Assembly (NCBI GenBank): GCA_017561025.1
Contig: JAFZDU010000093.1
Location: forward strand, 1 to 39,091
Source of the DNA: Bacteroidales bacterium
GTDB taxonomy: Bacteria > Bacteroidota > Bacteroidia > Bacteroidales > F082
Reading direction: 5' to 3'
Length of the DNA stretch: 39,091 nt
The notes beneath the pieces were generated by a model. That model saw nothing but the letters and a program-made list of their open reading frames with translations, did no database searches and was not told the DNA's origin. Of this stretch, positions 16,391 through 37,285 are shown piece by piece; the stretch's first letter is position 1; the number at the start of each line of letters is the position of its first letter. A program made the translations under genes and the position numbers.

Positions 16391-16488
16391 ATTTTAATAA
16401 TTTTAATTCTCCATCTCTTGCGAGATTTCGATTGGGGTTGATACTCATAAGAATGCGAAGACGAATCTCACATTCTCTTAATTTTCTG

Positions 16489-16496
16489 CAAAGATA
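16489..16496 (-). promoter_or_regulatory. -7 box of the DUF349 gene
   Basis: TATCTTTG on the minus strand, about 99 bases upstream of the ATG at 16390. The partner box is unclear. The leader includes a small hairpin (ATCTC-GCAA-GAGAT). Confidence 0.6.
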
Positions 16497-16610
16497 AAAA
16501 TAATTTGACGCGAAAATTAAAAAAAATACAAAAAACTATGTTAACGAAATCGGTTCTAAATGTTGGGCAAAAATCATTGTAAAGCTTAGGTTTCAGAAAC
16601 GAAAAAGTTG

Positions 16611-16618
16611 TAAATTTG
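16611..16618 (+). promoter_or_regulatory. -7 box of the cell-wall recycling cluster
   Basis: TAAATTTG fits TAnnTTTG and lies 21 bases before the ATG at 16640. It would drive the kinase-RapZ fusion, the MurU-like gene and the AddB-like gene, which overlap one another. Confidence 0.55.
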
Positions 16619-16639
16619 TAGTCGGTCAATATTATCCCA

Positions 16640-22679: not shown

Positions 22680-22706
22680 ATAAAGTTTCAATTTTGGTTT
22701 CTGCGA

Positions 22707-22714
22707 CAAAAGTA
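22707..22714 (-). promoter_or_regulatory. -7 box of the EEP gene
   Basis: TACTTTTG on the minus strand, 28 bases before the ATG at 22679. It is back to back with the promoter of the divergent thioredoxin gene. Confidence 0.55.
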
Positions 22715-22724
22715 TATATTATTT

Positions 22725-22755
22725 TTTGATAAAAAAAATATTCTGAGTATCTTTG
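22725..22755 (+). promoter_or_regulatory. Promoter of the thioredoxin-mnmE unit
   Basis: TTTG at 22725-22728, a 19-base spacer and TATCTTTG at 22748-22755. The start codon at 22780 follows 24 bases later. Confidence 0.75.
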
Positions 22756-22779
22756 TTGGCTTTTTAACATAAATTAACT

Positions 22780-24015
22780 ATGAAGTCCGTATTTTTTAAG
22801 ATTTCATGCATATTTTTTTTAACAATTCTGCCATTAAGACTACTCTCGCAGGTTATCATCGATGTCAAAATAAATGACATCAATGATACCGTATTATACC
22901 TCGTAAAATATAAAAGCGACAAAACACAAATCATAATAGACTCAAGTTCAATATCTTCAGACAAGAAAACCTTTAAAAACCATCAAAAATACGACGAAGG
23001 CATTTACATCTTGGCCGACAGCAAACAAAATCCACTTTTTGAAATATTGATAGGCAAAGACCAAAAGTTTTCGATATATGTTGAAGATCTTATGGAACTG
23101 AATAGTTATAAAGTAAAAGGCAGCAAAGAAACATCCGATTATTTTAAAATTCATTCCAGGACATTCCTCGATAAGCTACACATCAAAGCTTTAGAAAATG
23201 AAATGGAATATTTCCCAGACAATGCAAAAAAAATAGATTCCATCAAAAGAGAACTTTATGAATATCAGGAATCTATGTTAAGTAAAGACAAATCTTCTTT
23301 TTTGAACACATATATCAAATTCATTGAAGAATCACCAACAAACCAATATTTTGACCTGCCACTCTGTGACACTCGCATCTTGAATTCACGACTTTTAAAA
23401 AATAAACTTGACGTTTATTTCAATAATTACATGTCAGATCAGAATGCCGAGGCCATTTGTCAAAACATCGACAATCTGATTTCAAAAACAAATGACTGTC
23501 ATACCGTTAGAGATTATATACTTTGGTATTTATATTCAAAGTATTTCAACAACGATTTGATTTATATCCATTTAAGCGATAATTATTTTTCAAGACTGGA
23601 AATCAACAATTTAACGCAAAACATCAGAAATGAGATTGTCAAGAGAGCCGATGTTTTAAGGAACATTACTATTGGCAGCATCTCTCCTACTTTCACATAT
23701 ACCAATGATGAAGGCAATAAAATTGATTTATCAGAAATAAATGCCAAAAACATCGTTTTATTCTTCTACAAGCCTGATTGTCAGAAATGTATAAGAGAAA
23801 AACGTATTTTAGGACTAATTAAGAACAGACAAAAAGATTTAACTATTTTATATATAAACATAAGCGAAGACAATTATTCTAATGTAAGTCAAGATATTAT
23901 AAATCAATACGATATTGCGACCACTCCTACCATATATGTGTTAGATAACGACAAAAGGATAATTGCAAAGAATATTAAAGCAGAAGAAATTGAGTTTCAT
24001 ATAATTAAAAGATAA
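22780..24015 (+). CDS. TlpA-like thioredoxin-fold protein, exported
   Basis: A 411-residue envelope protein. A signal peptide (CIFFLTILPLRLLSQ) is followed by a beta-rich N-terminal part resembling DUF4369 (KINDINDTVLYLVKY, FEILIGKDQKFSIYVED), a helical middle section resembling DUF5106 (FDLPLCDTRILNSRLL) and a C-terminal thioredoxin-like domain with FYKPDCQKCIREK. The CxxC (Cys-Gln-Lys-Cys) is intact, and TTPTIYVLD supplies the cis-proline loop. This domain order is typical of Bacteroidota periplasmic oxidoreductases, which probably reduce or isomerise disulfides. It is followed by mnmE after only four bases, an apparently unrelated partner. Confidence 0.8.
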   Translation: MKSVFFKISCIFFLTILPLRLLSQVIIDVKINDINDTVLYLVKYKSDKTQIIIDSSSISSDKKTFKNHQKYDEGIYILADSKQNPLFEILIGKDQKFSIYVEDLMELNSYKVKGSKETSDYFKIHSRTFLDKLHIKALENEMEYFPDNAKKIDSIKRELYEYQESMLSKDKSSFLNTYIKFIEESPTNQYFDLPLCDTRILNSRLLKNKLDVYFNNYMSDQNAEAICQNIDNLISKTNDCHTVRDYILWYLYSKYFNNDLIYIHLSDNYFSRLEINNLTQNIRNEIVKRADVLRNITIGSISPTFTYTNDEGNKIDLSEINAKNIVLFFYKPDCQKCIREKRILGLIKNRQKDLTILYINISEDNYSNVSQDIINQYDIATTPTIYVLDNDKRIIAKNIKAEEIEFHIIKR

Positions 24016-24019
24016 AGAT

Positions 24020-25525
24020 ATGAGTTTTTTGAAGAACGACACCATTTGTGCCATAGCGACGGCATCAGGAACAGCAGCAGTTTCAATGATCAGAATGTCA
24101 GGAAAAGACAGCCATAAGATTGCGCTTTCGAGATTTATCAGAAAGAAAGAATTGACACTTGATACTATTGTCGCGAACAAAATGTATTATGGCGAAATAA
24201 CAGATTTAGACGGCAAAATCATTGACGATGTGATGCTTACGTTCTTCAAGGCACCACATTCATACACTGGCGAAGACTCAGCAGAGATAGTATGCCACGG
24301 TTCTCCTTTCATTCAAAACAAGATATTGGAGATACTGATTCAGAGCGGCGCACGTCTGGCAGAAGCCGGCGAATACACCATGAGAGCGTTCGTCAACAAC
24401 AAGATGGACCTCACCCAGGCAGAAGCTGTCGCCGACCTCATCTCATCACAAAATGAGGCAGAACACCGTGTAGCGATGAACCAGCTCAAGGGCGGTTTCT
24501 CAAAAGAGCTTCAAGTATTGAGAAGCAAGCTCTTAGACCTCACATCTTTGATGGAACTAGAACTAGACTTCAGCGAAGAAGACGTAGAATTCGCTGACAG
24601 AACCAAGCTCAACAACTTAATTGAAGAGGCCTCAACTCATATCAACAAACTCACTGATTCTTTTAGACTTGGCAACACTATAAAAAGAGGTACGCCTGTC
24701 GCAATCGTCGGTGACGCCAACGCCGGCAAGAGCACACTGCTCAACGCCCTGCTCGGTGAGGAAAGAGCTATCGTTTCAGATATCGCAGGCACCACACGCG
24801 ACACCATTGAAGAAACACTGAATATCGGAGGAAAGACATTCCGATTCATCGACACTGCCGGCATCAGAGAGACAGAAGACACCATCGAAAAAATCGGTAT
24901 CGAACGCGCTTTCAAGAAGATATCAGAAGCCGACATCATATTAGGACTCCTCGACTTAAACCAAAGCTCTGACACATATTTCAAATCAGCAAGATTTATA
25001 ATTAACAACGTCAACTTATTAAAACAAAAGCTGATACTGATATTCAACAAAGTCGATTTGAATAATGAGGCGATGTTGATTGATACCAAATTGATCATAA
25101 ATAACCTACGTACTTCTATCGAGAAAAACATAGAAAGAAATGGTGGCAACATGATCGACGAATACAAATACAGCGTTACTGGACAAGACTGCCACGACAT
25201 CCGTAACCTCATCAAATACGACTTCATTTCAGCAAAGAACGACGAACATATTGAGAAGTTAAAGAAAGACATCGCATTCTACGGAAGAGACTTGGTCGTT
25301 GGCGAAAACGAAGTGTTAGTCACCAACTTACGCCATTACGAAGCCTTGGTAAAAGCATCCGAGTCGTTGGTCAAGGTTAAGGAAGGATTAGATTTTGGCA
25401 TCTCCACTGAGTTTGTTGCACAAGATTTAAAAGAAGTCTTATATTATTTAGGCAGCATCACCGGTGAGATCAGCAGTAGCGACGTGCTTAATTCTATATT
25501 CGGCCGCTTTTGCATCGGTAAATGA
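24020..25525 (+). CDS. mnmE: tRNA modification GTPase MnmE
   Basis: A 501-residue GTPase that with MnmG makes the 5-carboxymethylaminomethyl group on wobble uridine 34 of certain tRNAs. The N-terminal folate-binding domain has DTICAIATASGTAAVSMIR and the HGSP and AGEYTMRAF blocks. The G domain, inserted in the helical domain, shows GDANAGKSTLLN (G1), GTTRDTIEE (G2), DTAGIRETED (G3) and NKVD (G4). The C-terminal end, FGRFCIGK, has the invariant cysteine of active MnmE. The family proline in the P-loop is Ala-Asn here, a tolerated change. Four bases separate it from the upstream thioredoxin gene, so they share a transcript. The mid-part is richer in GC than its neighbours, as often for conserved genes. 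Confidence 0.95.
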   Translation: MSFLKNDTICAIATASGTAAVSMIRMSGKDSHKIALSRFIRKKELTLDTIVANKMYYGEITDLDGKIIDDVMLTFFKAPHSYTGEDSAEIVCHGSPFIQNKILEILIQSGARLAEAGEYTMRAFVNNKMDLTQAEAVADLISSQNEAEHRVAMNQLKGGFSKELQVLRSKLLDLTSLMELELDFSEEDVEFADRTKLNNLIEEASTHINKLTDSFRLGNTIKRGTPVAIVGDANAGKSTLLNALLGEERAIVSDIAGTTRDTIEETLNIGGKTFRFIDTAGIRETEDTIEKIGIERAFKKISEADIILGLLDLNQSSDTYFKSARFIINNVNLLKQKLILIFNKVDLNNEAMLIDTKLIINNLRTSIEKNIERNGGNMIDEYKYSVTGQDCHDIRNLIKYDFISAKNDEHIEKLKKDIAFYGRDLVVGENEVLVTNLRHYEALVKASESLVKVKEGLDFGISTEFVAQDLKEVLYYLGSITGEISSSDVLNSIFGRFCIGK

Positions 25526-25583
25526 TTGATAATCAGTATATTATATTTATCACTATATTTAAATTATATCCTTTGACATAATT

Positions 25584-26627
25584 ATGAGAAATCTATTCTT
25601 TCTCCTATTTTTAATAACAAGCTCATTTACGTTTGCACAAAATGTTGACTTAAGTTCCGTTGATGAATTTTTCAAAATAACATATAAATTAAAAAATGGA
25701 GAAGAAATCAGTGATAATGACTGGAATAATTTTGAAAAATCAAAAGCTTACGCCATATTTACAAATAAATATATTATTGATATTGCAAAGTTATCTATAC
25801 GAAATGTATTTGGCAGTTGTAACATAAATATTGATAATAGTAATAATTTATTAAAAACATTAGTTTTAGCAAACTATGAAGAAATAAACTATAATTACTC
25901 TTCACTAAAGACATTTCGTGATAATTATGATTTTGAATCGCTGATTTATAATGCTAAATCAAGACTACAATCTTTTTTGATGTGCGAATTGGATTCTTCT
26001 GTAGAATGGAAACCAGTGTATTTTTTATTCTTAAGCAAAGATGGACAAGATAGAGATTCAGCCATCGTAATTGATTTAAATTTGATTTATAAAATGACTG
26101 AAGAGGAAAGAATCAATTTTCTTGCTCATGAGTTCTTCCATGTATACAGGGCACATTTTGAGCATCACGAATTCAATTATGCAAATGACATCAACTTTGT
26201 AATTGATATGATAGCGAATGAGGGGATAGCTGACCAAATCGACAAATATATGGGCTATGACCAATATTTTTCGAATTTTGGTAAATCTAAAGAACTTGCC
26301 AGCGAATTCAAACAGTTATACAATAACGCTCCAAAAGATATTGAATATTTACAGACAACAATCGCTCAATATGCAGCAAATCAGATAGACAAGGATACAT
26401 GCATTGACAGACTCATTGGCATTTACAAATACAACGGTCATGCCCTTGGCTTTTATATCTCCAATCAAATCATCAAAGCCGGATTAAGAGATGAAATGAT
26501 AAAAGAATTTCATAATCCCTATGAATTTTTCAGATTATATAGCTTGACTCTACCTAAGGATGAAAAGTCTTCATTAAACGATGATTTTCTCCTTTTCTTA
26601 AAAGCCGAAACAGAGCTATATTATTAA
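25584..26627 (+). CDS. Secreted putative zinc protease, DUF5700-like
   Basis: A 347-residue protein with a signal peptide (MRNLFFLLFLITSSFTFA/QNV). The HExxH motif is in NFLAHEFFHVYRAHF, and a downstream NEGIADQID supplies a plausible third ligand Glu, which gives a gluzincin-like arrangement. The overall pattern matches Bacteroidota proteins named as DUF5700 putative Zn-dependent proteases, though I cannot confirm the family by search. The Lys/Asn-rich, AT-rich composition is like the left block. It is probably exported to the periplasm or surface. It is the last gene of the left block; mobile-element DNA begins about 100 bases after it. Confidence 0.65.
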   Translation: MRNLFFLLFLITSSFTFAQNVDLSSVDEFFKITYKLKNGEEISDNDWNNFEKSKAYAIFTNKYIIDIAKLSIRNVFGSCNINIDNSNNLLKTLVLANYEEINYNYSSLKTFRDNYDFESLIYNAKSRLQSFLMCELDSSVEWKPVYFLFLSKDGQDRDSAIVIDLNLIYKMTEEERINFLAHEFFHVYRAHFEHHEFNYANDINFVIDMIANEGIADQIDKYMGYDQYFSNFGKSKELASEFKQLYNNAPKDIEYLQTTIAQYAANQIDKDTCIDRLIGIYKYNGHALGFYISNQIIKAGLRDEMIKEFHNPYEFFRLYSLTLPKDEKSSLNDDFLLFLKAETELYY

Positions 26628-26728
26628 GTGCAAAATTCAACAAGATATGTTCACTAACTTTTGTCAGACATAAAATCGGCTATCTGCCATCGATGATTAT
26701 TTAAAACACTATTCAATGATATACAATC

Positions 26729-26761
26729 AATGGCGACCGCTTATTGCGAGTAGTCGCCATT
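26729..26761 (-). terminator. Hairpin at the end of the mob genes
   Basis: AATGGCGAC (26729-26737) and GTCGCCATT (26753-26761) pair perfectly, with an inner CGC/GCG. It lies 12 bases after the stop of the broken mob gene on the minus strand. No T run follows, so it may be a factor-dependent terminator or an element-end structure. The preceding 100 bases (26,628-26,728) hold nothing I recognise. Confidence 0.5.
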
Positions 26762-26773
26762 GCTATTGGACTA

Positions 26774-27503
26774 CTATTTCACTTTCGTCTGCTGTTGTTT
26801 ATCCTTAATAGATTTCGCTTTGCTCTCTTGCTCCTTGGCGGCTTGCTCTTTCAATCGTGCTTGCTCGGCAAGGGCGGCTTGTTTGCGGACAGCCTCTTCG
26901 TAGGTTTCCACATCTTCACGCATCTGCTCAATCTTTTGGTTATCACGGTTGAGTTCAAAGATGTCCTCCAATGTGGCTATTTGCTCAGCCGATGCGTCGC
27001 CTTTCATTTTGATGTAGCGGTATTTGAGGTCGTTGTCAATGCGATCTTGGTTGGGCTTCTATGATATTATTATCCAAGTAAATAGTCCCCAAAATCAAAG
27101 CCGTTTCTATCACAATAGTCCAACAGACAAATGGCGTTTCGAAGCCTATCCTATGATGCTTGAAATTGTGAACACCATCCTCAATGCTTGTTTTGAGTCT
27201 TTGAACCAATGTCTTGGTTTCTTCAACTGATTCTTGAAGTTTTCCCGATGGCTGTGAATTACCAATAACTGCTCTTACATCTTTTACTCTGCGATGTATC
27301 ATTTCTACATCACCGGGTATAAGAGCGACAACCTTTTGTAAGTCGCTTTCTGCCTGTTCTCGATGTTTGTTGCCATTCTCGATTAACTCCTTAATAGGTG
27401 TCAAATCTACATTGGCACTTACTGTTTGTTCTGTTCGTTGGCTTTTGCTGATGGTCAGCAACTCTTCCAACATTGCGATGATGATTGAATTATTTTCCTG
27501 CAT
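26774..27503 (-). pseudogene. Frameshifted mobilization accessory gene
   Basis: Two minus-strand pieces of one gene. The N-terminal piece (27503-27036) begins MQENNSIIIAMLEELL, is rich in coiled coil and has a membrane segment near its end (FVCWTIVIETALILGTIYLD). The C-terminal piece (to 26774) is charged coiled coil, with EDIFELNRDNQKIEQM and AALAEQARLKEQAAKE. Between them, at about 27,045-27,060, the correct frame switches: the next frame reads PNQDRIDNDLKYRYIKMKG, the expected continuation in intact relatives of Bacteroides conjugative and mobilizable elements. A single indel therefore breaks it. It follows the relaxase by 18 bases. The protein is expected to be an inner-membrane accessory of mobilization, but its exact function is not known to me. 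Confidence 0.75.
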
Positions 27504-27521: not shown

Positions 27522-28460
27522 TTAATGATTATAGTTTGAATCCTCTGGTCTCTTTTTCTTAGGCTTCTGTTGCATCAAACGGCGGAAATCTGCCTCTTCC
27601 TGACTATCCACATCAGGCGAAGAAGTGAAGTCCAACAAGCCTAATGAACCATTGATAAGATCCGATTCTTTATTCTCGAAATGGCTTATTTGCATATCGC
27701 TCGGCTTATATTGTCGCTGATATTCCGCTTGATTGTAACTATTCAGCGCCTTATCAATCTTTGAATAACTGAAACTGCGGTCTATCTTCGAGCCGTTAAA
27801 GTGGTAGCCATTCTTGGTAAAGATGATACCTTGCACCTCATTGCTATTGCCCTTATACTTAAAGCGGACATCTATTCCTTCGGCTTTCAAGCGCTTCAGC
27901 AGTGTAGTCCAATCCGAGCATCGTGCAACTTCCCGTTTGAGAACTTGGTATATCTCGTAACGAGTTTTGTCAGGCTCTTTCAGTCGGTGCGTTTTTACTT
28001 GTTCCTTGCCATTTGCGAAGTATAGTCCGTATTTGCGTGTCAGCTCCTTGCAGATGCGTTCACTGCGGTAACGGTCATTCCTGTCGCTGATGGTTCTGCC
28101 GTTATTATCTACTCGATTAAAGGCAATATGAACGTGTGGATGCTCCTTGTCATAGTGCCGTCCGATGATGTATTGCGTATCACGAATACCCATTTTCTCC
28201 ATATATTCTCTGCTTATCTGTATCATAAGTTCGTCTGTTAAGCGTGGTAAATCCTGCATTGAGAAGCTTAGTGAGATATGTCCGATGAACTTATCTACTC
28301 GTGGGTTAAGCCTCGATTGAGCAATGAAACTTTTGGTTATCGTGCTGTTATCATTGAACAATACACCTTGACAATCTATAAGCGTGGCTTGCTTCTTCTT
28401 GTCGAGGATATAATCTACAATTCCTTTGGCTCCAGAGCCTTTCACAATCTTGGCCATCAT
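27522..28460 (-). CDS. Relaxase / mobilization nuclease (MobB type)
   Basis: A 312-residue relaxase that nicks oriT and covalently carries the strand to the recipient. The ATG at 28460 overlaps the stop of the upstream gene (ATGA), the usual coupling, so the longer open frame is not used. Motif I is the N-terminal MAKIVKGSGAKGIVDYIL with the candidate nucleophile Tyr. Motif II is GHISLSFSMQD, and motif III is the histidine triad in GRHYDKEHPHVHIAFNRVD (HxxxxHPHVH). The C-terminal part is charged and shorter than in some relatives. It matches the relaxase of Bacteroides mobilizable and conjugative transposons. All catalytic motifs look intact, even though the downstream mob gene is broken. Confidence 0.88.
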   Translation of the reverse strand: MMAKIVKGSGAKGIVDYILDKKKQATLIDCQGVLFNDNSTITKSFIAQSRLNPRVDKFIGHISLSFSMQDLPRLTDELMIQISREYMEKMGIRDTQYIIGRHYDKEHPHVHIAFNRVDNNGRTISDRNDRYRSERICKELTRKYGLYFANGKEQVKTHRLKEPDKTRYEIYQVLKREVARCSDWTTLLKRLKAEGIDVRFKYKGNSNEVQGIIFTKNGYHFNGSKIDRSFSYSKIDKALNSYNQAEYQRQYKPSDMQISHFENKESDLINGSLGLLDFTSSPDVDSQEEADFRRLMQQKPKKKRPEDSNYNH

Positions 28461-28822
28461 AGGCTGATATGGTCTATAATGTTTTCCAATGAAAGTAGCA
28501 GATGTTGGCATTGCCCATAGTGCAGCCTTACGCCTTCGCGATGAGCCTTGCGTGTAAGCTGATTGAGATTGTTTGCCATACCGCATAGTTTACGGATATA
28601 GTCCGCTTGTTCGGTGGTAAGGCGTGCCTTGATATGGCAATCACGGATAGCCATTCTCACAATCTCACTTGCCGAGACTCCGGCGTTCTTGGCTTTGAGT
28701 TTCATAGCATAGTACTCTTCGGTTGCCATCTTTACCGTTATGCGGTACTTGCGTTTCTCGGACAACTTCTTCGTGGGTCGTCCTCCCTTGTTGGGTGTCT
28801 TGTTATTGATACTTCGTTTCAT
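28457..28822 (-). CDS. Mobilization accessory protein (MobC/MobA type)
   Basis: A 121-residue basic DNA-binding protein of the relaxosome. Met at 28822 is chosen because the open frame upstream runs through the oriT-like repeats and its residues look random. The N-terminus is basic (NKGGRPTKKLSEKRKYR), followed by a ribbon-helix-helix-like segment (RITVKMATEEYYAMKLKA, AGVSASEIVRMAI) and the MobC core (GMANNLNQLTRKAHREG, where NLNQL is the family hallmark). It helps the relaxase to melt or bend oriT. It is coupled to the relaxase by a four-base overlap. In Bacteroides elements this gene is often named mobA. Confidence 0.85.
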   Translation of the reverse strand: MKRSINNKTPNKGGRPTKKLSEKRKYRITVKMATEEYYAMKLKAKNAGVSASEIVRMAIRDCHIKARLTTEQADYIRKLCGMANNLNQLTRKAHREGVRLHYGQCQHLLLSLENIIDHISL

Positions 28823-28904
28823 ACGATTACTCTTTTTTGAAATGATACATACATTGTTTACTTGATAGACCAACGGGATGTCTTCTTCTGCGACCTTCGG
28901 GAGT

Positions 28905-28988
28905 GGAAGCAAGTGGTTTTGGTCTGCCCAAAACATAAACTTGCTTCCCTACTAACTGAAGGTCAATCAATTTTGAGTGCCTCAAAAT
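28905..28988. other. Candidate oriT: nested inverted repeats upstream of the mob genes
   Basis: GGAAGCAAGT (28905-28914) pairs with ACTTGCTTCC (28939-28948), and inside it GTTTTGG (28916-28922) pairs with CCAAAAC (28928-28934), giving a long nested stem-loop. Twenty bases on, ATTTTGAG (28970-28977) and CTCAAAAT (28981-28988) form a second perfect hairpin. All lie directly upstream of the relaxosome genes, the usual location of oriT. The nic position cannot be told from the sequence. Confidence 0.6.
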
Positions 28989-29031
28989 GAAATACCGTTG
29001 GAATTGTTCTTAAATAGAATGGATTAAGAGG

Positions 29032-29481
29032 TTACATTCCTTTCCAATGCTCGAAATCTTCTGAATAGAGTTCGATGTGATGGCTAACGATGTTCTCCAA
29101 CAATCCCGACATACTCATTCTGTCCTCACCGATTTTACAGGCGAACTTATCAAGCATCTTTCGCAATTTACCGCTGATGAATACCGGCTTGAGGTCTTCA
29201 ATCTTGTAAGGTCGCATAAAGGTGTTGCGATACTCCTCCAATGAGAGTTTGCGTTGCGTGTTGCTTACTCTGCGTTGGATGGTCGGAGTCGGTGGTTGTT
29301 GCTCAACTACATTGGTAGACGGAACTTCATCTGTCACCTCTGCAACGGAAGAGACTGCTTCCGTTTGGGCTTGTTTTGCTACTGACGGTAGAGGCTCTGG
29401 CAGAATGTCGTCAATGGATGATCCTACGGATTCCATTGTTTGCAAATTCTCCATATCTGAGCTATTACCCTTATCACTCAT
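29032..29481 (-). CDS. DUF3408 protein of conjugative/mobilizable elements
   Basis: A 149-residue protein. The first about 90 residues are low-complexity, rich in Ser, Glu, Pro and Val, and probably disordered. The C-terminal part is a DUF3408 domain: LSLEEYRNTFMRPYKIEDLKPVF is the hallmark (quoted here as YRNTFMRPYKIED), followed by SGKLRKMLDKFACKIGEDRMSMSGLLENIVSHH (key words SMSGLLENI, HHIELYSEDFEHW). These proteins are encoded near parA and mob genes in CTnDOT-like elements and resemble ribbon-helix-helix DNA binders. A role in transfer-region DNA binding is inferred from context. It lies upstream of the oriT-like repeats on the same strand as the mob genes. Confidence 0.8.
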   Translation of the reverse strand: MSDKGNSSDMENLQTMESVGSSIDDILPEPLPSVAKQAQTEAVSSVAEVTDEVPSTNVVEQQPPTPTIQRRVSNTQRKLSLEEYRNTFMRPYKIEDLKPVFISGKLRKMLDKFACKIGEDRMSMSGLLENIVSHHIELYSEDFEHWKGM

Positions 29482-29560
29482 GTAAAAAAGACCTTGTAGT
29501 CATTTGGTCGATAATTTCTTGACACTGTTCTTGTGTCAACTCAACTTGTTTTTTCTTCAT
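29474..29560 (-). CDS. Possible 28-residue leader peptide before the DUF3408 gene
   Basis: The ATG at 29560 opens a short frame (MKKKQVELTQEQCQEI, ending SFLHE) whose stop overlaps the first codons of the DUF3408 gene. The overlap suggests translational coupling, and the composition is credible for a small protein. It could also be the remnant of a larger gene. I have no family for it. Confidence 0.35.
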   Translation of the reverse strand: MKKKQVELTQEQCQEIIDQMTTRSFLHE

Positions 29561-30305
29561 ACTTATCACTTTTTGAATGTTCAACAATATGGTCTTTGTG
29601 CACAATCTTGACCGATTATCTGCTGCAAAGAAAATGTGCATACAATTCTACCACAACTAATTAGGCCTATGTAGGCAATTATGAATTGCATTGCATTTAG
29701 GGGTGATTTATAAGCAGTGCCGACTGCATAATTCTTCCCAAGTTGAACGGATAATTATGAATTAGGGCGAAATGTTTATTTGAAGAAATTAAGGACTTAA
29801 ATCAGATAGCGGATAGAAGGACTACCGAGACATCGGGAGTTGGTCTATCCGCTATACTGCTATTATTGAATTAGTGACTTTCTGTTTCGGCTGTTCGGGT
29901 CACGAGTTTGACAGACGGATAAGAATCGGTCTGACAAACGACAATGAGCGGAAAAGATCCGAGACGGATAATCGCTTGAGGATATTCTTATATAATATTG
30001 GTTACAATGTTATGTATGCTTATGAATGTATCATCATATACATCTAAAAATGCCACGAACTGTGCCACATACTGCAACAGGCTCACCGTATGATTGAGGT
30101 GTGATAACTTATCTATTACTTCGCACCAACAAAACGAAATTGCTATGAGGAAAGAGCCTATTTCGATGACTGATTATCGTGCCTGTGATGAAACGATATG
30201 ACAAGGAATGACACCTATTGTTAGTGCCATTGAAGTATAAAAATATCCTCCTTATTTAGCAGTGCGAAACAAGAAAACAAGTGAAATAATATAAAACAAA
30301 AGCGT
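29561..30305. other. Non-coding region with inverted repeats and CGGATA words
   Basis: No convincing gene is present in 745 bases between the minus-strand mob/DUF3408 side and the plus-strand helix-turn-helix genes. It contains a perfect 12-bp inverted repeat (29806-29817 with 29844-29855), an 11-bp inverted repeat with one mismatch (29906-29916 with 29929-29939), the word AATTATGAATT twice (near 29,680 and 29,752) and CGGATA at 29748, 29810, 29916 and 29965, with its complement at 29846. This looks like a control region where element-encoded DNA-binding proteins act. Confidence 0.55.
29806..29855. repeat. Perfect 12-bp inverted repeat
   Basis: ATAGCGGATAGA (29806-29817) and TCTATCCGCTAT (29844-29855) are exact complements around a 26-base spacer. 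This is the strongest dyad in the element's non-coding region, with no T run beside it. It suits a protein-binding or cruciform site better than a terminator. Confidence 0.75.
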
Positions 30306-30619
30306 ATGGATTTAATCATTTTTGAGAGAAAGGCATTCGAGGAATTTGCCACGAAGATTGAGCAGTTCATTCTGCGAGTATCAAATTCACCCGTTGTCAA
30401 GAACGGGAAGAAAAGACAAACAATTGGCTCGACCATCAGGATGTTTGTCAGCGATTGAAGATAAGCAAGCGTACATTGCAGACCTTGCGTGATAATGGTA
30501 CACTTGCCTATACCAATATCGGCAACCGGACTTACTATCTGCCCGAAGATGTGGATAGCATTATTACGAAGGTAGAGGACAAGCGAAAAGAAGCCAAATG
30601 GAAAGGGCGAGAAATCTAA
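30306..30619 (+). pseudogene. Frameshifted helix-turn-helix (excisionase-like) gene
   Basis: The ATG at 30306 starts MDLIIFERKAFEEF and reads to a stop at 30458. From about 30,421 the next frame continues the gene as NWLDHQDVCQRLKISKRTLQTLRDNG and on to GNRTYYLPEDVDSIITKV (pieces quoted: DVCQRLKISKRTL, LPEDVDSIITK), ending at 30619. Loss of one A in the AAACAAT stretch explains the break. The second half is the MerR/excisionase-like HTH_17 domain, so the broken protein would lack DNA binding. Intact relatives occur as a pair with the next gene in Bacteroides mobile elements and act as element regulators or excision factors. Confidence 0.8.
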
Positions 30620-30649
30620 TCAATGTATAACAATAAAACCATTTGAACT

Positions 30650-30961
30650 ATGTATCAGGAGATGCGAACTAAAGACGATGCGTGGATGCAGTCCATTCAC
30701 GAGAGTATCGACCAACTAACGGATATTCTCGATAGTATGCCAAAAGATGGGACAATCTTACAAAACGATGATGAGTATCTATGCGACAAGGAGGTAGCAT
30801 ATATGCTTAAAGTCAGCCGAAGAACATTAAGCGAATACCGAAGCAATGGAACATTGTCTTACTATGTACTTGGTGGTAAAGTTCTGTATAAGCGAAGTGA
30901 GATTGAGCAAGCATTGAAACGGGAGTACAACGGCAAGCACCTGATGAATAACAGCGGATAA
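30650..30961 (+). CDS. Helix-turn-helix domain protein of mobile elements
   Basis: A 103-residue DNA-binding protein. The N-terminal half is helical and acidic (WMQSIHESIDQLTDILD). The C-terminal half is an HTH_17 / excisionase-like winged helix: YLCDKEVAYMLKVSRRTLSEY holds the recognition helix (key part EVAYMLKVSRRTL), followed by SNGTLSYYVLGGKVLYKRSEIE, the wing (key part GGKVLYKRSEI). It follows the broken paralogue by 30 bases. Such tandem pairs are common in CTnDOT- and NBU-type elements, where they regulate excision or transfer. This copy appears intact. Confidence 0.8.
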   Translation: MYQEMRTKDDAWMQSIHESIDQLTDILDSMPKDGTILQNDDEYLCDKEVAYMLKVSRRTLSEYRSNGTLSYYVLGGKVLYKRSEIEQALKREYNGKHLMNNSG

Positions 30962-31000
30962 ATCCCTTCTATATTTGAGTCAGGCTCGAATATACTCTGC

Positions 31001-31063
31001 GCTCGCTTTGAAAAACATTCAAGCAAGCTTGATGTTCCTCGCTCGCTTGTGCTATATTTTTGG
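31001..31063 (+). promoter_or_regulatory. Conserved promoter module, copy 1
   Basis: About 63 bases: a CTCGC word, GAAAAACATTCAAGCAAG, the palindrome CAAGCAAGCTTG, then CTCGCTCGCTTG and a TATATTTTTG -7-like end. A clearly related module occurs at 37,422-37,490 before the DUF1573 gene. Layout and -7 ending suggest a promoter with a conserved upstream region. Its target here would be the doubtful small frame at 31122. Confidence 0.5.
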
Positions 31064-31121
31064 AGGGAGCGAAATTTACCGCTTGCCCTATATTCATCTA
31101 CTGCAAAATAATAGCGCCCCT

Positions 31122-31388
31122 ATGGATAGAAACGAGAACAGCATACAAAAGGGTTATCAATGTAAGAACCCGTTTGCTTTTGCGAAATTGCTACCGCTCA
31201 ATATAGCCTGCAAGCAACCTCTATGTTCGCTTAACCGCAATTTTGTATGCTGTCTGTTTATCTTCTACATTTTCGTCAGTCGCTTATTTCCGTTGCCGTC
31301 TGCATTTCTGAGTACAGACATTGAAAGGGGAAAGGTTTTCGGGGTGAATACTCTCCGTAGGAGGAAGATTCTGCCCGAAATGGCTTGA
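31122..31388 (+). CDS. Doubtful small open frame downstream of the HTH gene
   Basis: An 88-residue frame starting MDRNENSIQKGYQ, with a hydrophobic stretch (NFVCCLFIFYIFVS) near the middle and a basic end. It has the conserved promoter module about 60 bases upstream, which is its only support. No family is recognised and its composition (many Cys, Phe, Leu) is not convincing. It may be non-coding DNA belonging to the repeat-linked region that follows. Confidence 0.25.
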   Translation: MDRNENSIQKGYQCKNPFAFAKLLPLNIACKQPLCSLNRNFVCCLFIFYIFVSRLFPLPSAFLSTDIERGKVFGVNTLRRRKILPEMA

Positions 31389-31418
31389 CGCTTGACCTTT
31401 CAACTTTCAAGGTCTGAT

Positions 31419-31635
31419 GTACTACCTTCGCAGACAAACAAAAGAAAGGGGCGAATGACGGAATCGGTAAACTTCATATATCGCAGATTGATGATAGACC
31501 AAATTCAATTATTACCCTGCAATAATGAAAAATGCACCACCTTTTTGCTCGTTCATAAAAAAGTTGTATCTTTGTGTATCAGGAGTTATCCCAATGGTGC
31601 AAAACAATAAAGAACTCTGAAATAGGAACGGTTGC
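31419..31635 (+). repeat. 217-bp direct repeat, upstream copy (promoter intact)
   Basis: This copy and that at 34690-34906 are the same length with no gaps and differ at about 15 positions (about 93% identity by my hand alignment). It begins GTACTACCTTCGCAGAC and ends GAAATAGGAACGGTTGC. It lies directly upstream of the ATPase-HNH cassette. Weaker similarity extends about 50 bases further upstream in both copies (GAAGATT-CCCGA words). A frame of about 55 codons is open in both copies but shows no protein-like feature. Confidence 0.9.
31544..31574 (+). promoter_or_regulatory. Promoter inside the upstream repeat, facing the defence cassette
   Basis: TTTG at 31544-31547, exactly 19 bases, TATCTTTG at 31567-31574: a consensus Bacteroidota promoter. 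It lies about 220 bases before the ATPase start at 31797 and is the best promoter for the cassette. The equivalent positions in the downstream repeat read TTTA and TGTCTTTG. Confidence 0.8.
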
Positions 31636-31796
31636 AGTGTGTGTATACTTTGAATGTGTGCTTACCGGTTTACAGATTTTTCCAACCTGCTTATCCTAGA
31701 TAAGCAAGGGTACTTCGGAATGTAATTTTGAAATATAATAAATCAGAATTCAATAGAAGTAAAACGGGTATTTGTGGATTTATAATTTATAAACTT

Positions 31797-33734
31797 ATGG
31801 CTATTACACGTGAACAACGCTTAGAAATATATAAATCAATTAATGCGTTAGGTAGTATCTGGGGACAATCTGGAATGATTAGCAAGGTGCAATTTCTGAA
31901 TAGAATCTGGGAATTGCGACTAATGTCATCTTCTGATCCTCGATTCAAGACTGCAGCAGAAGATGCAAAAAAACATCTTATAGATAATGATGATTGGGAT
32001 GACAATTATGTATTTCTTGACCGATTCAAACTACTTGATTGTAGTGAAGAAGAATTTCTCAAATTTATTAATGTTGTCATCAGTCCAGAAGTAAGAGTTG
32101 ATGAGAATGAAATAGAAAAATACATCTCTGTCATAGAATCTTTATTACCAAAAAAATATGAGATAATTGAAACGAGAGACAAAAATGGGAAATTATCTCA
32201 TTCCGTCCTAATGACAAAAAAATATAATGGTGAAGAAGAACAATATCCAATCGGAGTGAATCCAAATGATATACAATTTTTTACAAACATAGTACCCACA
32301 AAATATCCAGCTTTTCAAATTAGAACTAATAATTGGGATGATTTCGGGTATAAAACAAGTTCAGAATTATATTATTGGTATGAAAACGCCCAATATAAGT
32401 TTATTGGTAGACTAAAAATTCTCAATTCAGAAGAAGAGAATACGAGTAAGATACTGCCCCAATCGTTCATGTCATTAGGTGCTACTTTCTGCAGTTTAGG
32501 GCAAAGTGAACACTATTACATAAGACTAAAGCAATTATTTCCTAACAGATATCAATCTGTATTGTACGCATTAAAAGATACTGCCTGGTTTTCTGAAATT
32601 CAGTATCGTTTTGAAAATCATCAAGGATTTAAGAGATCTCTTTTAAGGGATGGAGCTACAGATGCGCTTTTATCTAGCGCCAGACGCAAAGTTGAGAGAG
32701 GAGAAGATGAATCATGGAATTTTATGTTCAAGACTAAAGTCCCATATTCCGAACAACCAATTGAAATTCAATTTGAATTTGGTGATCTTGAAGATGAGGA
32801 CAATCCCTATCGTATAAAAGCCTTGATTGGCGCCAATGGATCGGGAAAGACTTCTATTATGAAGGCTCTTGTGGAAAGTCTTATTCGCAACGAAGGCAGT
32901 TTTACCCCATCTCATCCTGTTTTTTCAAAAGTAATAGCTATCTCATTTAGCATTTTTGATACTTTTATATCCCTTAGAGGAAAGTCTGTTCTTACTTATA
33001 CGTACTGCGGACTTCATGATAAAGAAAATACAGTTATGTCTGTAGAGGATCGTGAAGCTCGTTTAAGAGAGTCATTGATTTGGATTAATGGCGGTGATGA
33101 AGGAAAAGTATTCGGCAAAACACAACTAATCAAACGATTTTGCAATGGTCTTGAAGTTGTCTTTCCCAAGGATTGGGTTGATTCTGTCTGGACAGATGAC
33201 GGTTTAGCTATAAGTGCAATCTTAGAGAAGTCTCGGACTATGAGTACTGGAGAAGCAATGATTCTTAATCTTATTGCTTCTTTGTACGCAAATATACGAC
33301 AGAACTCTCTTATTGTATTTGATGAAATGGAAGTACATCTTCATCCAAAAGCAATTCGTCAAATGATGTCACTTCTATTCAAAATTACAAAGGAGTTCAA
33401 TTCTGCTTGCATATTAGCAACTCATTCTTCTATTGTAGTCCAAGAGTTATTAGCCGACAATGTCATAATTATTGATAAACTTCAGGATGGAATCCCTGAA
33501 CTACGTATTCTTAATCATGAATCGTTAGCTGAAAACCTTTCTGTGATAAGTGATGAAATCTTTGGAGAGGCATCTATTTCTCCACATTATAAGACTTTTA
33601 TCCGAACAAAGGCTCAGGAGTCAGATACTTTAGAGGCGTTACTTCAACAACTCTCTTCACGAAATCTACCGCCAAGTTTAGCTCTCTATATGCAGGCTCG
33701 TTACGAATTTGAAAATAAAAGAAACAATGATTAA
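31797..33734 (+). CDS. Defence-type AAA/ABC ATPase with AbiJ-NTD3-like N-terminus (PtuA-like)
   Basis: A 645-residue ATPase, read from the ATG at 31797; a TTG at 31728 would add 23 residues of poor quality. Residues about 29-100 (FLNRIWELRL, SSDPRFKTAAED, NDDWDDNYVF, EEFLKFINVVISPEVR) resemble AbiJ N-terminal domain 3, a module shared by many abortive-infection proteins. Residues about 170-300 (RTNNWDDFGYKT, FCSLGQSEHYY) are a linker domain I have seen before similar defence ATPases but cannot name. The ATPase has Walker A GANGSGKTS (345-353), signature MSTGE (482-486), Walker B LIVFDE (505-510) and the switch His543 in ATHSS. Its stop overlaps the HNH gene by eight bases. ATPase plus HNH is the Septu (PtuA-PtuB) layout, so anti-phage defence is inferred. 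Confidence 0.8.
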   Translation: MAITREQRLEIYKSINALGSIWGQSGMISKVQFLNRIWELRLMSSSDPRFKTAAEDAKKHLIDNDDWDDNYVFLDRFKLLDCSEEEFLKFINVVISPEVRVDENEIEKYISVIESLLPKKYEIIETRDKNGKLSHSVLMTKKYNGEEEQYPIGVNPNDIQFFTNIVPTKYPAFQIRTNNWDDFGYKTSSELYYWYENAQYKFIGRLKILNSEEENTSKILPQSFMSLGATFCSLGQSEHYYIRLKQLFPNRYQSVLYALKDTAWFSEIQYRFENHQGFKRSLLRDGATDALLSSARRKVERGEDESWNFMFKTKVPYSEQPIEIQFEFGDLEDEDNPYRIKALIGANGSGKTSIMKALVESLIRNEGSFTPSHPVFSKVIAISFSIFDTFISLRGKSVLTYTYCGLHDKENTVMSVEDREARLRESLIWINGGDEGKVFGKTQLIKRFCNGLEVVFPKDWVDSVWTDDGLAISAILEKSRTMSTGEAMILNLIASLYANIRQNSLIVFDEMEVHLHPKAIRQMMSLLFKITKEFNSACILATHSSIVVQELLADNVIIIDKLQDGIPELRILNHESLAENLSVISDEIFGEASISPHYKTFIRTKAQESDTLEALLQQLSSRNLPPSLALYMQARYEFENKRNND

Positions 33735-34581
33735 GTATCCCTTATATCAATTCTCCATTAATGGTGAGACTCCATTTGATGTGTATAAAACTGCGGCACA
33801 TGGAGATGCTATTCTTGATGCTATTGAAATACAGATGGAGAATTGTTATAATGATTATGAAAATGCGGTCAATAGTGCTTCTGTTCACAATCTGAGCTCT
33901 CATGGTTTTGTCGACCCAGAAAAGGAACATTTAAAAAAACTATATAAAAGCGATTGTGATATAGCAAAAAAAATACGACTGCATCATAGCACATTTACAA
34001 GTACTACAAAAAGAGTTTATAACAACAAATGTCCTTATTGTACATTGTCTGAGCCTAATACAATAGAACATATTCTTCCAAAAGAAAAATATCCGGAATT
34101 TGCAGTTCATTTATATAATCTAATTCCATGTTGCTCTAAATGTAATAGACATAAGAGTGAAGCTGTCAGTGATCAATATGGGTTACCCTATACCATAAAC
34201 TTTTACTATCATGACCCGGAATATTGTCAATTTTTGGAGGTCGATTGTATTATTGACTATAAAGGATTCCCATCATTCAAATATAAACTTACTTTTCCTC
34301 AAGGTGTAGATCCAACATTGACAGCTATAATAACCAATCATTTTAACAGACTTCATCTGATTGAACGATATAATGAGGAAGTTTTAATGAGTTATACAGT
34401 AACTGAATCAACGATAAAATCTGCATGTGGAGGGAAAACTTTAAATGATGCATTACAATACCTCAAAAACTATCTATCCATTATAAAAAACGATTATGGA
34501 TTGAACCACCATTATGTTGCTATGATAAGATGTATGATCGATTCGCCAATATATCATGCCTATTTGCAATCAATATTGTAA
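33727..34581 (+). CDS. HNH endonuclease partner (PtuB-like)
   Basis: A 284-residue protein. The ATG at 33727 overlaps the ATPase stop (ATGATTAA) and is preferred to an in-frame start 18 bases upstream. The HNH region is residues about 101-143: KCPYC (Cys102, Cys105), EHILPK (His115 as general base), NLIPCCSKCNRHK (Asn131, a Cys pair to Cys139, Asn140, Lys143). The CxxC pairs would bind structural zinc and His115 the catalytic metal. About 100 residues before and 140 after match no family I know. In Septu, PtuB is the nuclease and PtuA controls it by ATP binding; the same division of labour is inferred. The cassette is AT-rich relative to the mob genes, which suggests separate acquisition. Confidence 0.8.
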   Translation: MIKYPLYQFSINGETPFDVYKTAAHGDAILDAIEIQMENCYNDYENAVNSASVHNLSSHGFVDPEKEHLKKLYKSDCDIAKKIRLHHSTFTSTTKRVYNNKCPYCTLSEPNTIEHILPKEKYPEFAVHLYNLIPCCSKCNRHKSEAVSDQYGLPYTINFYYHDPEYCQFLEVDCIIDYKGFPSFKYKLTFPQGVDPTLTAIITNHFNRLHLIERYNEEVLMSYTVTESTIKSACGGKTLNDALQYLKNYLSIIKNDYGLNHHYVAMIRCMIDSPIYHAYLQSIL

Positions 34582-34689
34582 ATACGTTAATGCTCTCCTC
34601 TTAAGAAAATTATTAGAGGCTTATTGTTTTAAAAAGAAGATTTTACCCGATATAGTTTGCTACCTAATCATAAACTTTCACCCAAGTCT
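34582..34689. other. Short spacer between the HNH gene and the downstream repeat
   Basis: 108 bases with no gene. The last 55 bases share words with the region upstream of the other repeat (AAGAAGATTTTACCCGA here against AGGAAGATTCTGCCCGA near 31,366), so the duplicated segment once extended further than the 217-bp conserved core. Confidence 0.55.
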
Positions 34690-34906
34690 GTACTACCTTC
34701 GCAGACGAGCAAAAGAAAGGGGCGAATGACGGAATCGGTAAACTTCATATATCGCAGATTGATGATAGACCAAATTCAAATATTACCCCGTAATAATGAA
34801 AAATGCACCGTCTTTTTACTCGTTCATAAAAAAGTTGTGTCTTTGTGCATCAAGAGTTATCACATTGGTGCAAAACAATAAAGGACCCTGAAATAGGAAC
34901 GGTTGC
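34690..34906 (+). repeat. 217-bp direct repeat, downstream copy (promoter decayed)
   Basis: Same orientation and length as the copy at 31419-31635. The TTTG box is TTTA (34815-34818) and the -7 box is TGTCTTTG (34838-34845), so both promoter boxes carry disabling substitutions in otherwise well-conserved DNA. The distance between copy starts is 3,271 bp and spans the whole ATPase-HNH cassette. Beyond 34,906 the similarity stops abruptly. Confidence 0.9.
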
Positions 34907-35022
34907 CATCTCGTTACCCAATTTCAATGCAACCCGAATAACCGTTTAATTCTAAGATAATTGCAGATTCTTAATTTTTTATAAAAAAAGTTGCTGTAGG
35001 AGATATTTACTGCATTTATGAA

Positions 35023-35052
35023 TTGAATGTAAGAATATATAGATTATCTTCG
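35023..35052 (+). promoter_or_regulatory. Promoter of the RelA/SpoT-family gene
   Basis: TTG at 35023-35025, 19-base spacer, TATCTTCG at 35045-35052, a one-base variant of TATCTTTG. It lies 26 bases before the ATG at 35078. It implies that the gene has its own promoter and does not depend on the repeat just upstream. The DNA from 34,907 to 35,022 has no recognisable feature. Confidence 0.55.
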
Positions 35053-35077
35053 CAGTCGGGACGAAAAACAGAGAAAT

Positions 35078-37285
35078 ATGGAGAACTACGGCATAACACT
35101 AAGCTCACAGGAACGCGATGAGATACTGCTTCTCAACCGCAAACTAAGGACAAACATCGAAGGACGACTACCCTCTAAGGACTACCATTTTGTAAAGGAG
35201 AGTATAACAAGAACCATCAATGATGGAGGAATAAGACGCGATGGTTTCGGCTTCTTCCCCGTCATATTGGATATGCAGACTGCATATATCGTCGGGCAGG
35301 AGATTGGACTGCACCGCGACATAATACAGAGCATAATGCTCAACCGCAGCCTACAGCACGGCACAATAACCCTCGACGAAGTAAAAGAGAAACTGGGAGA
35401 GAGCGTTGCAAATATGCTCAACAACCTCTACCAGATACACTCGCTGTATGCAAAGAACTCCACCATAGAGAGCGAGAATTTCCGCAACCTACTGCTCTCT
35501 TTTGCCAACGATATGCGCATAATACTCATAATGATTGCAAGCCGTCTGGTACTTATGCGCCGTCTGTTCGACTCCGAAGACATCGAAGGACGCAAGCGCG
35601 TATCGGCAGAAGTATCCAAGCTCTATATTCCGTTGGCACACAAACTGGGATTCTACAAGCTGAAATCGGAGATGGAAGACCTTGCCCTGCGGTACACCGA
35701 GAGCGACGTTTATGCCACACTGAGCCGCAAGCTCGAGGAGACTGCCGCTTCGCGCGAGGATTATATGAAATCCTTCATACACCCCATTGAGACAGCACTG
35801 CGCAAGAATCCACATATAAAATACCACATCAAGGGACGCACAAAATCCATAAACTCAATATGGCAGAAGATGAAAAAGCAACGACTGCCCTTTGAGAATA
35901 TATACGACCTTTTTGCCATACGAATAATAATAGACTGCCCACCGCACGAGGAGAAGAGCCTCTGCTGGCAAGTATACTCAATAGTGACAGATATGTACAC
36001 GCCCAACCCCAACCGTCTGCGCGACTGGCTCTCTGTTCCCAAGAGCAACGGATACGAGTCTTTGCACACAACAGTCATCGGCCCCGAGGGACGATGGGTG
36101 GAAGTGCAGATACGTACCGAGAGAATGGACGCAATAGCCGAGCACGGTCTTGCAGCCCACTGGCGTTACAAAGGAATAAAAAGCGAGAAAGGACTCGACA
36201 ACCTGCTGGCATCTATCCGTGACACGATAGAGAACCTGAGCGAAGAGGAGGTAAACGAAAACAAATTCAAGATGGAGCTCTACAAAGACGAGATTTTTGT
36301 CTTTACACCCAAAGGCGACCTCTACCGCCTTGCCAAAGGAGCAACCATACTCGACTTTGCCTTCAGCATACACACAGGCCTCGGCTGCAAGTGCACCGGC
36401 GCCCTCGTCAACGGACGCAACGTGCCGATACGCCACACACTCAACAACGGCGACCAGGTGGAGATTATCACCTCGAACAGCCAGACACCCAAACAGGCGT
36501 GGCTCAACATTGCACAAACCGGACGCGCACGCACCAAGATACGCCAGGCACTGAAAGACCTCACAGCCCGCCAGGCCGATATTGCCCGCGAGATGCTCAT
36601 ACGCAAGTTCAAGAACCACAAGATCGAGTATGACGAGGCAATTATGGACCAGCTCATACGCAAGATGGGCTACAAGCGGCTGAGCGACTTTTACCAGCGC
36701 GTAGCCGAGGGAGGCATAGACGTTGCCGAGATATACAAGCGCTACAACAGCATAATAAACCCCGAGAGCAGCGAGAGCACGCACAGTGCCCAAGACTTTA
36801 CCCTTGTGCCCGACAAAGAGCGATTCGGTGGCAACGACGTACTTGTGATTGAGCGTAACCTAAAAGGCGTAGACTACAAGCTCTCAAAATGCTGCGCCCC
36901 CATCTTCGGCGACGAGATATTCGGCTTTGTAACCATAAACGGCGGAATATCTATTCACCGCAAGGATTGCTGCAACGCACGACAACTGCGCGAACGCTAC
37001 CCCTACCGTGTGATAGACGCACGCTGGAGCGACACCGTCACAGCCAAAGGAATGTACGAGGTTACACTGCGCATAGTGGGACACGACGACATTGGCATCG
37101 TAAACAACATCACATCGCTCATAACACAAGAGAAAGACGTCACAATGCGCGGAATAAACATCGAGTCGCACGACACGCTATTCTCGGGCACACTCACACT
37201 GATGGTGAGCGAAAACTCCAAGCTCAAGAAGCTGATGACAAAAATAGAAGCGATAAAAGGAGTGAAACAGGTGACACGCATATAA
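35078..37285 (+). CDS. relA: RelA/SpoT-family (p)ppGpp synthetase
   Basis: A 735-residue long RSH protein controlling the stringent response. The N-terminal HD hydrolase region (about 40-190) is degenerate: I do not see the HD metal motif at its expected place, where GLHRDIIQSIMLNRSLQHG stands, so it is probably synthetase-only (RelA type). The synthetase domain (about 235-370) has IKGRTKSINSIWQKM, YDLFAIRIII, KSNGYESLHTTV and VEVQIRTERMDAIAEHGLAAHW (as EVQIRTERMDAIAEHG). The TGS domain (about 405-465) shows FVFTPKGDLYRLAKGATILDF. The zinc-finger-like segment (SIHRKDCCNARQL) and a C-terminal ACT domain (VTLRIVGHDDIGIVNNI) follow. GC is clearly higher than in the left block, with heavy use of ATA for Ile and CGC for Arg. 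It belongs to the right-hand background, not to the mobile element. Confidence 0.92.
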   Translation: MENYGITLSSQERDEILLLNRKLRTNIEGRLPSKDYHFVKESITRTINDGGIRRDGFGFFPVILDMQTAYIVGQEIGLHRDIIQSIMLNRSLQHGTITLDEVKEKLGESVANMLNNLYQIHSLYAKNSTIESENFRNLLLSFANDMRIILIMIASRLVLMRRLFDSEDIEGRKRVSAEVSKLYIPLAHKLGFYKLKSEMEDLALRYTESDVYATLSRKLEETAASREDYMKSFIHPIETALRKNPHIKYHIKGRTKSINSIWQKMKKQRLPFENIYDLFAIRIIIDCPPHEEKSLCWQVYSIVTDMYTPNPNRLRDWLSVPKSNGYESLHTTVIGPEGRWVEVQIRTERMDAIAEHGLAAHWRYKGIKSEKGLDNLLASIRDTIENLSEEEVNENKFKMELYKDEIFVFTPKGDLYRLAKGATILDFAFSIHTGLGCKCTGALVNGRNVPIRHTLNNGDQVEIITSNSQTPKQAWLNIAQTGRARTKIRQALKDLTARQADIAREMLIRKFKNHKIEYDEAIMDQLIRKMGYKRLSDFYQRVAEGGIDVAEIYKRYNSIINPESSESTHSAQDFTLVPDKERFGGNDVLVIERNLKGVDYKLSKCCAPIFGDEIFGFVTINGGISIHRKDCCNARQLRERYPYRVIDARWSDTVTAKGMYEVTLRIVGHDDIGIVNNITSLITQEKDVTMRGINIESHDTLFSGTLTLMVSENSKLKKLMTKIEAIKGVKQVTRI

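Follow-up and report, generated by a model that had tools for sequence, protein, structure and literature searches.

The stretch of DNA analyzed here, called the window throughout, covers 39,091 nucleotides (nt) of contig JAFZDU010000093.1, from the metagenome-assembled genome (MAG) GCA_017561025.1 of a Bacteroidales bacterium. Two overlapping genes, coding for an ATPase and an HNH nuclease, lie in it between two copies, R1 and R2, of a direct repeat; R1 overlaps an imperfect palindrome of about 190 nt, and R2 runs into the right end of what is probably a mobilizable element (Table 1). A first-pass annotation, made from the sequence alone, had regarded the two genes as a defence cassette and the repeats as the unit by which such cassettes are exchanged.

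Table 1. Features of the mobilizable element, of the bracketed cassette and of their borders in the window
Feature	Position	Strand	Remarks
Left border zone	25526-26790	.	DUF5700 peptidase gene at 25584-26627, no integrase gene
First stretch homologous to A-type relatives	26791-27029	.	85-91% DNA identity, four loci
MobA/VirD2-like relaxase gene	27522-28586	-	PF03432, E 6.5e-40
MobC/NikA-like mobilization gene	28457-28936	-	Pfam
DUF3408 gene, mobilization region	29032-29481	-	Pfam
HTH_17 gene	30650-30961	+	Pfam
Imperfect palindrome, ~190 nt	31273-31461	+	Covarying stems; overlaps R1; + is the folding strand
R1, direct repeat copy 1	31418-31635	+	3' arm of palindrome and part of element right end
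Bacteroidetes-type promoter, TTTG-N19-TATCTTTG	31544-31574	+	Intact in R1, reads towards cassette
ATPase gene	31797-33734	+	ATG at 31797; AbiJ_NTD3 and AAA_21 (Pfam); best model PDC-M01A
HNH nuclease gene	33727-34581	+	Pfam, PADLOC; best model PDC-M01B
Decayed second palindrome	34599-34706	+	16.7 bits, E 0.031
R2, direct repeat copy 2	34689-34906	+	Promoter pattern lost
Terminal part of B-type right end	34907-34989	+	Contiguous with repeat in six relatives
RelA/SpoT-family gene, right chromosomal neighbour	35078-37285	+	Pfam

The cassette and its flanking repeats

The ATPase and HNH genes overlap by 8 nt. Walker A (GANGSGKT), STGE, LIVFDE and ATHS motifs were recognized in the ATPase, and two CxxC motifs plus EH in the HNH protein; the latter protein scores 24.1 bits against the Pfam HNH model, whose cut-off is 21.4. 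The best PADLOC models are PDC-M01A for the ATPase (PDLC04240; E 4.1e-107, 357 bits, residues 4-631 of 645) and PDC-M01B for the nuclease (PDLC04266; E 6.6e-44, 149 bits, residues 30-276 of 284), with the Septu models scoring lower, at 2.6e-55 (186 bits) for PtuA and 8.7e-12 (43 bits) for PtuB. Because the PDC-M01 models outscore the Septu ones, the pair is regarded as a candidate PDC-M01 defence system, related to Septu: the pairing, the overlap, the motifs and the candidate role in defence, all pointed out in the first-pass annotation, which named Septu as the known parallel, are retained.

With PDC-M01 the locus shares the best models of both proteins, over most of their length, and the two overlapping genes; no difference in gene content was found, the unusual trait being the mobile-element setting. 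Septu likewise pairs an ATPase with an HNH nuclease, and both of its models match, but, besides the lower scores, the ATPase found here differs by its N-terminal AbiJ_NTD3 domain. None of the solved structures matched by sequence is named Septu. Judging from their families, the two proteins may form a complex of sensor and nuclease directed at incoming DNA.

R1 and R2 are 218 nt long each, one more than first reported, and can be aligned without gaps at the 93% identity already noted, their starts being 3271 nt apart; 12 of the 15 mismatches are transitions. The BLAST E-value of 5e-94 and the continuation of the match leftward, in gapped form, to 87% over 275 columns in total exclude a chance origin of the likeness. 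Both genes do lie inside the repeats, as had been stated, but not exactly between them, 161 nt separating R1 from the ATPase start and 107 nt the HNH stop from R2; nor is it correct that the interval contains nothing else, since the weak palindrome match of Table 1 is found there.

The Bacteroidetes-type promoter pattern of R1 recurs in 33 of 34 alignment rows, a count in which 4 of the 38 rows, having no such segment, are omitted and three loci occur twice. R2 is the sole row from which it is missing (34815-34845 by position). As the R1 promoter is intact and reads towards the cassette, R1 appears placed to transcribe it. The cassette leader also contains, at 31688-31706, a perfect 8-bp inverted repeat, TGCTTATC-CTA-GATAAGCA.

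The repeat, the palindrome and the adjacent putative slot

Of 148 further genomes from the genus and order, 7 gave matches, all limited to pieces of 24-57 nt; one of the seven (locus L003) was found to carry a related palindrome when queried with a longer sequence. When the order was sampled evenly, the repeat was matched in 18 of 393 genomes, the own one included, several matches extending over 130-300 nt. The search across Bacteroidales suggested in the first-pass annotation thus did reveal the repeat in other genomes of the order. With a 20-base pattern, 27 stretches were identified across the genome collection; a Phocaeicola plasmid record likewise matched the repeat. These 27 stretches, together with L043, L045 and L048, make up a set of 30 outside loci, in which the match must reach the promoter box; L046, L047, L040 and the window copies were dropped as duplicates, and loci interrupted before the box, such as L003, L049 and L070, lie outside the count. 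Viral contigs scanned with the repeat pattern and with the right-end pattern gave no match to either; 4 matches were obtained there with the pattern GTACTACCTTCGCAGAC and 14 with a hairpin pattern.

The repeat is contiguous with an element right end in 29 of the 30 loci, the exception being L092, where a retron occupies the slot described below. Two end types were distinguished among the contiguous loci, A in 23 and B in 6, and the window is B-like. In B-type ends the repeat continues with CATCTCGTTACC... up to a T6/A6 junction: R2 keeps this continuation to about 34989, R1 is devoid of its terminal 83 nt, and the six B-type relatives pass through the breakpoint without cargo. The right end itself recurs at differing insertion sites across the element family. 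A private repeat, or the end of a transposon, was considered and rejected, given that 29 of the 30 outside loci have the repeat contiguous with a shared element end. The repeat belongs to a mobile-element right end, and what is conserved as a landmark is the palindrome on its left. The neighbouring site does carry varied cargo in relatives, but the exact 218-nt repeat was seen to bracket cargo only in the window.

A palindrome core model built from 18 sequences (model R1) scores 122.9 bits in the window, at 31308-31435, and yields 56 matches (E up to 1e-5) in 35 of the 393 genomes of the order, the own one included. In an alignment of 22 selected copies, on which the structure was also predicted, there are 60 pairs, with 94.6% of cells paired; 27 pairs are changed on both sides, as compared to 16.1 +/- 2.2 in shuffled versions, none of which, out of 500, reached 27, and covariation is 0.317, as against at most 0.097 in slid versions. 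Cells of the G-U type number 117 and A-C cells 18, indicating that the + strand is the one that folds. As single-stranded DNA, the window palindrome features a z-score of -5.5; the region of the second copy (34590-34720) folds no better than shuffles (z 0.4). None of 4227 Rfam families matches positions 29000-36000 at E up to 1, and no T run, as would mark an intrinsic terminator, is seen after the 3' arm by reading of the sequence, no dedicated terminator scan having been run. When plasmids were searched with two additional subtypes of the palindrome, OY726017 was the sole match.

Relatives share a common layout, in which a mobilization (mob) gene, a helix-turn-helix (HTH) gene or both are followed by the ~190-nt palindrome and then by the right end or an integrase module; cargo, where present, sits right of the palindrome and, by reading, starts in several loci within a few nt of its outer stem. 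Scanning of 78 of 80 palindrome matches (omitted were L160, which is truncated, and the second match of L137, at 20 bits) left 76 after removal of exact duplicates. A reference-like integrase gene lies within 8 kb rightward in 43 of them, the module being found within 300 nt in 30 cases and beyond a larger gap in 13. Ten of the gaps are clear cargo slots; not counted as such are L221 (no open reading frame, ORF), the second copy of L206 and L223 (two small ORFs). Five slots in three genomes, with palindromes 95-99% identical, contain five different cargos.

These five are AIPR/AbiU (L137), an HNH_5 protein under the Pfam cut-off (L138), an insertion-sequence transposase with a PNP/HAD protein, 6.4 kb from the integrase (L139), a NACHT protein (L140) and a Schlafen-AlbA/HATPase protein (L213). 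Other slots contain an HTH protein (L204), a second PDC-M01 pair (L041) and small proteins with no Pfam or PADLOC match (L195, L197, L206). In L092, a window-type element on the contig of L121, a type III-A retron reverse transcriptase and a PRTase-CE protein lie between palindrome and right end. These data support, as a pattern, a putative cargo slot right of the palindrome, usually empty and otherwise often filled with defence genes, within a sample which is non-random and in which part of the cargo is not defence. The site has the look of a place where swappable immune systems are parked. Of the cassette-slot idea put forward at first, the varied and often defensive cargo near the palindrome is borne out, whereas active exchange through R1 and R2 is unproven, because the two repeats differ like copies from different genomes and R2 is decayed.

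Defence hotspots are reported in P2-like phages and P4-like satellites (PMC9122126) and in Tn7-like elements with defence cargo (PMC8649781), with which the slot shares a fixed position in the element and a varying defence cargo. It differs from them in belonging to Bacteroidales mobilizable or conjugative elements and in having as its edge a conserved, covarying palindrome of ~190 nt, sometimes on both sides of the cargo. RteR, a 90-nt small RNA of a Bacteroides conjugative transposon, is named in a further report (PMC7366714). In titles and abstract openings, a body of literature outside which preprints and most subscription journals fall, no description of the slot or of the palindrome was found. 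If the slot holds, a single short conserved landmark would serve for harvesting defence systems from Bacteroidales mobile elements, several of its cargos matching no Pfam or PADLOC family, next to retron, NACHT, AIPR and ATPase-HNH ones; it would also prompt one to ask which role the palindrome plays in the mobile elements of gut bacteria, and whether immune genes are swapped between these under its guidance.

A few further observations concern the palindromes. Inverted pairs with integrase genes in between are found in L143 (5623/8200), L153 (455/4876) and L159 (3166/7655). Five palindromes are contained in about 44 kb of G378:C1 (2433972-2478017, L210-L212), where they adjoin relaxase-like and methylase-helicase genes, along with a gene which we take to be topoisomerase-like; their placement would suit borders between the modules of some large conjugative element. 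A low-scoring subfamily (L207, L209, L215-L220), most members of which share a TATCCGACATTTTTTT leader, has no reference-like integrase rightward in the stretch examined. Defence-like genes also occur left of the palindrome (L136, L135, L147), namely an AbiLi-type ATPase (PDLC02335, E 2e-67) and C5 methyltransferases.

Origin of the bracketed arrangement

Direct palindrome pairs enclose cargo, beside an integrase or a right end, at four loci, i.e. the window, L041, L195 and L206; they are also found in tandem elsewhere, with weaker matches (L211, L212 and L225). L041 is a contig from the human gut, entered in GenBank as MT835661 with the labels phage and 'unverified', in which 325-nt repeats, 86% identical, enclose an ATPase-HNH pair. 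Its ATPase and HNH proteins are respectively 33% (E 1.6e-104) and 22% (E 1.4e-17) identical to those of the window, and both pairs are PDC-M01 by PADLOC, so that the placement of such genes between repeats, first remarked in the window, is found again for a second, diverged pair between homologous direct repeats. Bracketing mates are mutually best matches in only one of seven pairs (L212). Since bracketing copies are mostly closer to copies located elsewhere, they look like joints between elements and not like recent duplications; bracketing appears to fit the joining of different elements better than a target duplication.

R1 and R2 are 93.1% identical over 218 nt, and the five full-length B-type relatives are 92.2-94.9% identical among themselves; to these five, R2 is 89.9-91.3% and R1 90.8-93.6% identical (the sixth relative, L091, is truncated and scores 82-85%, since gaps are counted as differences). 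Over the 158 nt common to all, R1 and R2 are 94.3% identical, the median of all pairs being 92.4%, and L098 is closer to both R1 (94.9%) and R2 (95.6%) than these are to each other. The first palindrome of the window is 98.4% identical to a copy in another genome and 78% to its R2 partner. A recent duplication of the repeat was accordingly disfavoured, on the R1/R2 identity and the palindrome best matches.

We favour homologous recombination as the origin of the arrangement, followed by accretion of two elements, with an integron-like process as a bold alternative. With moderate confidence, we regard the locus as a PDC-M01 cassette in the accessory slot of a mobilizable element, bracketed through recombination between repeated ends. 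The cassette would have come in with a palindrome-plus-right-end segment of another element of the family; homologous recombination between the conserved ends would have left it bracketed by two non-identical copies, of which R1 would have kept the outward promoter, now placed to transcribe the cassette, while R2 would be decaying.

Several findings weigh against this view. R1 is the nearest relative of R2 over the full 218 nt (the next one is 91.3% identical), the two are weak sisters in both trees (support 0.83-0.85), and their differences are sparser over the first 91 nt than further on, a trend which is not significant by permutation (0.11). No other locus was found in which the 218-nt repeat brackets cargo, and only L041, among the bracketed cargos, resembles the window genes, no family having been matched in L195 and L206. 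No palindrome match lies near the ATPase relatives of L125-L127, which come from three other genomes, or near that of plasmid L164. The window cassette begins 174 nt right of the palindrome and not at its edge, as cargo does elsewhere, and no circle, excision or single-repeat allele of this locus was observed in the assembled sequence.

Accretion is a possible, if rather unlikely, explanation. Two elements with the same right-end type would have come to lie side by side and suffered deletions, the left one keeping the mob genes and R1, the right one only the cargo and R2; the first end would have lost its terminal ~80 nt, and the second element its left end. This agrees with the lack, after R1, of the 83 nt present after R2, with a divergence of R1 and R2 about equal to that between ends of separate elements, and with the presence in a single genome (G378) of three insertions with different cargo (L138, L139 and L213). 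However, the 31636-31796 interval does not match any of 22 reference integrases, no B-type left end was found for comparison, and the loss of an intact first end would need to coincide precisely with the shared GGTTGC boundary.

Integron cassettes carry attC sites, and the elements described here resemble them in having an imperfect palindrome at the cargo border and a tyrosine recombinase nearby. The palindrome might be a folded single-strand site for the tyrosine recombinases of the element, by which cargo and palindrome would move together. The single-strand fold, with its excess of G-U over A-C cells, the start of cargo close to the outer stem in several loci, the second palindrome after the cargo in four loci and the recombinase genes, one or two in number, that adjoin many copies are all in line with such a process, which we nevertheless consider improbable: of the 43 slots on the integrase side, 30 are empty and the others mostly unbracketed, no multi-cassette array was seen beside an integrase, palindromes also occur away from reference integrases, beside other operons, and no crossover position is demonstrated. 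The palindrome is real, but no more than 4 loci next to an integrase or an element end have bracketed cargo; differently from integrons, the slot is mostly empty or holds a single cargo, and recombination is not demonstrated. We would give little credit to the broader proposal that the palindromes, widespread in Bacteroidales mobile elements, are folded single-strand sites exchanging whole defence modules, analogous to integrons yet separate, the window being one of four or more bracketed cassettes. A folded single strand may also be shared with the single-strand origin of ICEBs1. That origin is reported as likewise a non-coding element in an integrative element (PMC4595007).

Still less probable is a duplication of the element end in situ, possibly old and followed by conversion, with insertion of the cassette between the copies by an unrelated event. 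The pairing of R1 and R2 in both trees and their proximity over 218 nt speak for it, as does GGTAAACTTCATATATCGC, a form read in both R1 and R2 and absent from the other rows among those listed; the palindrome of R1, far closer to that of another genome than to its R2 partner, and the stretch left of R2, only ~75% identical to relatives and R1 over 89 columns including 32 nt of the repeat, speak against it. An assembly artefact, i.e. a misjoin of a mixed MAG at a repeated mobile-element end, is very improbable: the MAG does contain two versions of the region, and contigs of other MAGs often start or stop at the repeat, but a misjoin in R1 would alter the sequence to its left and leave the R1-cassette-R2 bracket in place, and an independent contig (L041, itself unverified) features the same architecture.

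The host element and its neighbours

The element taken to hold the cassette carries relaxase, MobC/NikA and DUF3408 genes. Its mob and HTH region matches L117, L118 and L120 at 87-94% DNA identity, and L119, only from 29032 onward, at 84%. In two of these A-type relatives a tyrosine integrase lies left of the mob/HTH region (L118, E 2e-17; L119, E 5e-19); none was found in L117 and L120 in the stretch examined, which stops at the contig end. No integrase family was detected by Pfam in the 26 ORFs scanned in the window, and 22 reference integrases gave at best an E-value of 0.10, over 51 residues (27087-27239). The window ceases to be syntenic with a related contig of its MAG at the 3' end of mnmE (25523), and the right-end junction falls just before the relA upstream region. 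The host is probably an integrase-less, non-autonomous Bacteroidales mobilizable element, ending upstream of relA. Direct adjacency of mnmE and relA as the empty site was tried and rejected, since mnmE and relA were not neighbours in five loci belonging to other families.

Among A-type elements, OY726017.1 (L043), a 35-kb Phocaeicola massiliensis record called plasmid, contains an A-type end with an HTH gene, homology to the DUF3408 region and an integrase-like gene. By reading, many A-type ends (e.g. L046, L078 and L087) stop a few bases before a host TTATnTTTG-like sequence, which resembles the Bacteroidetes -7 box, the outward promoter of the element lying just inside the end.

The MAG looks mixed, with extra mnmE copies (90% in C72, 53% in C40) and a second chorismate synthase (80%, C72). 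G000:C72 (L232) is syntenic with the window from 13442 to 25523, where it stops at the mnmE 3' end. The relA-family protein of the window finds its best matches in other families of the order (E 5e-80, 45%), the best within the same genus being at E 8e-52 and 39%.

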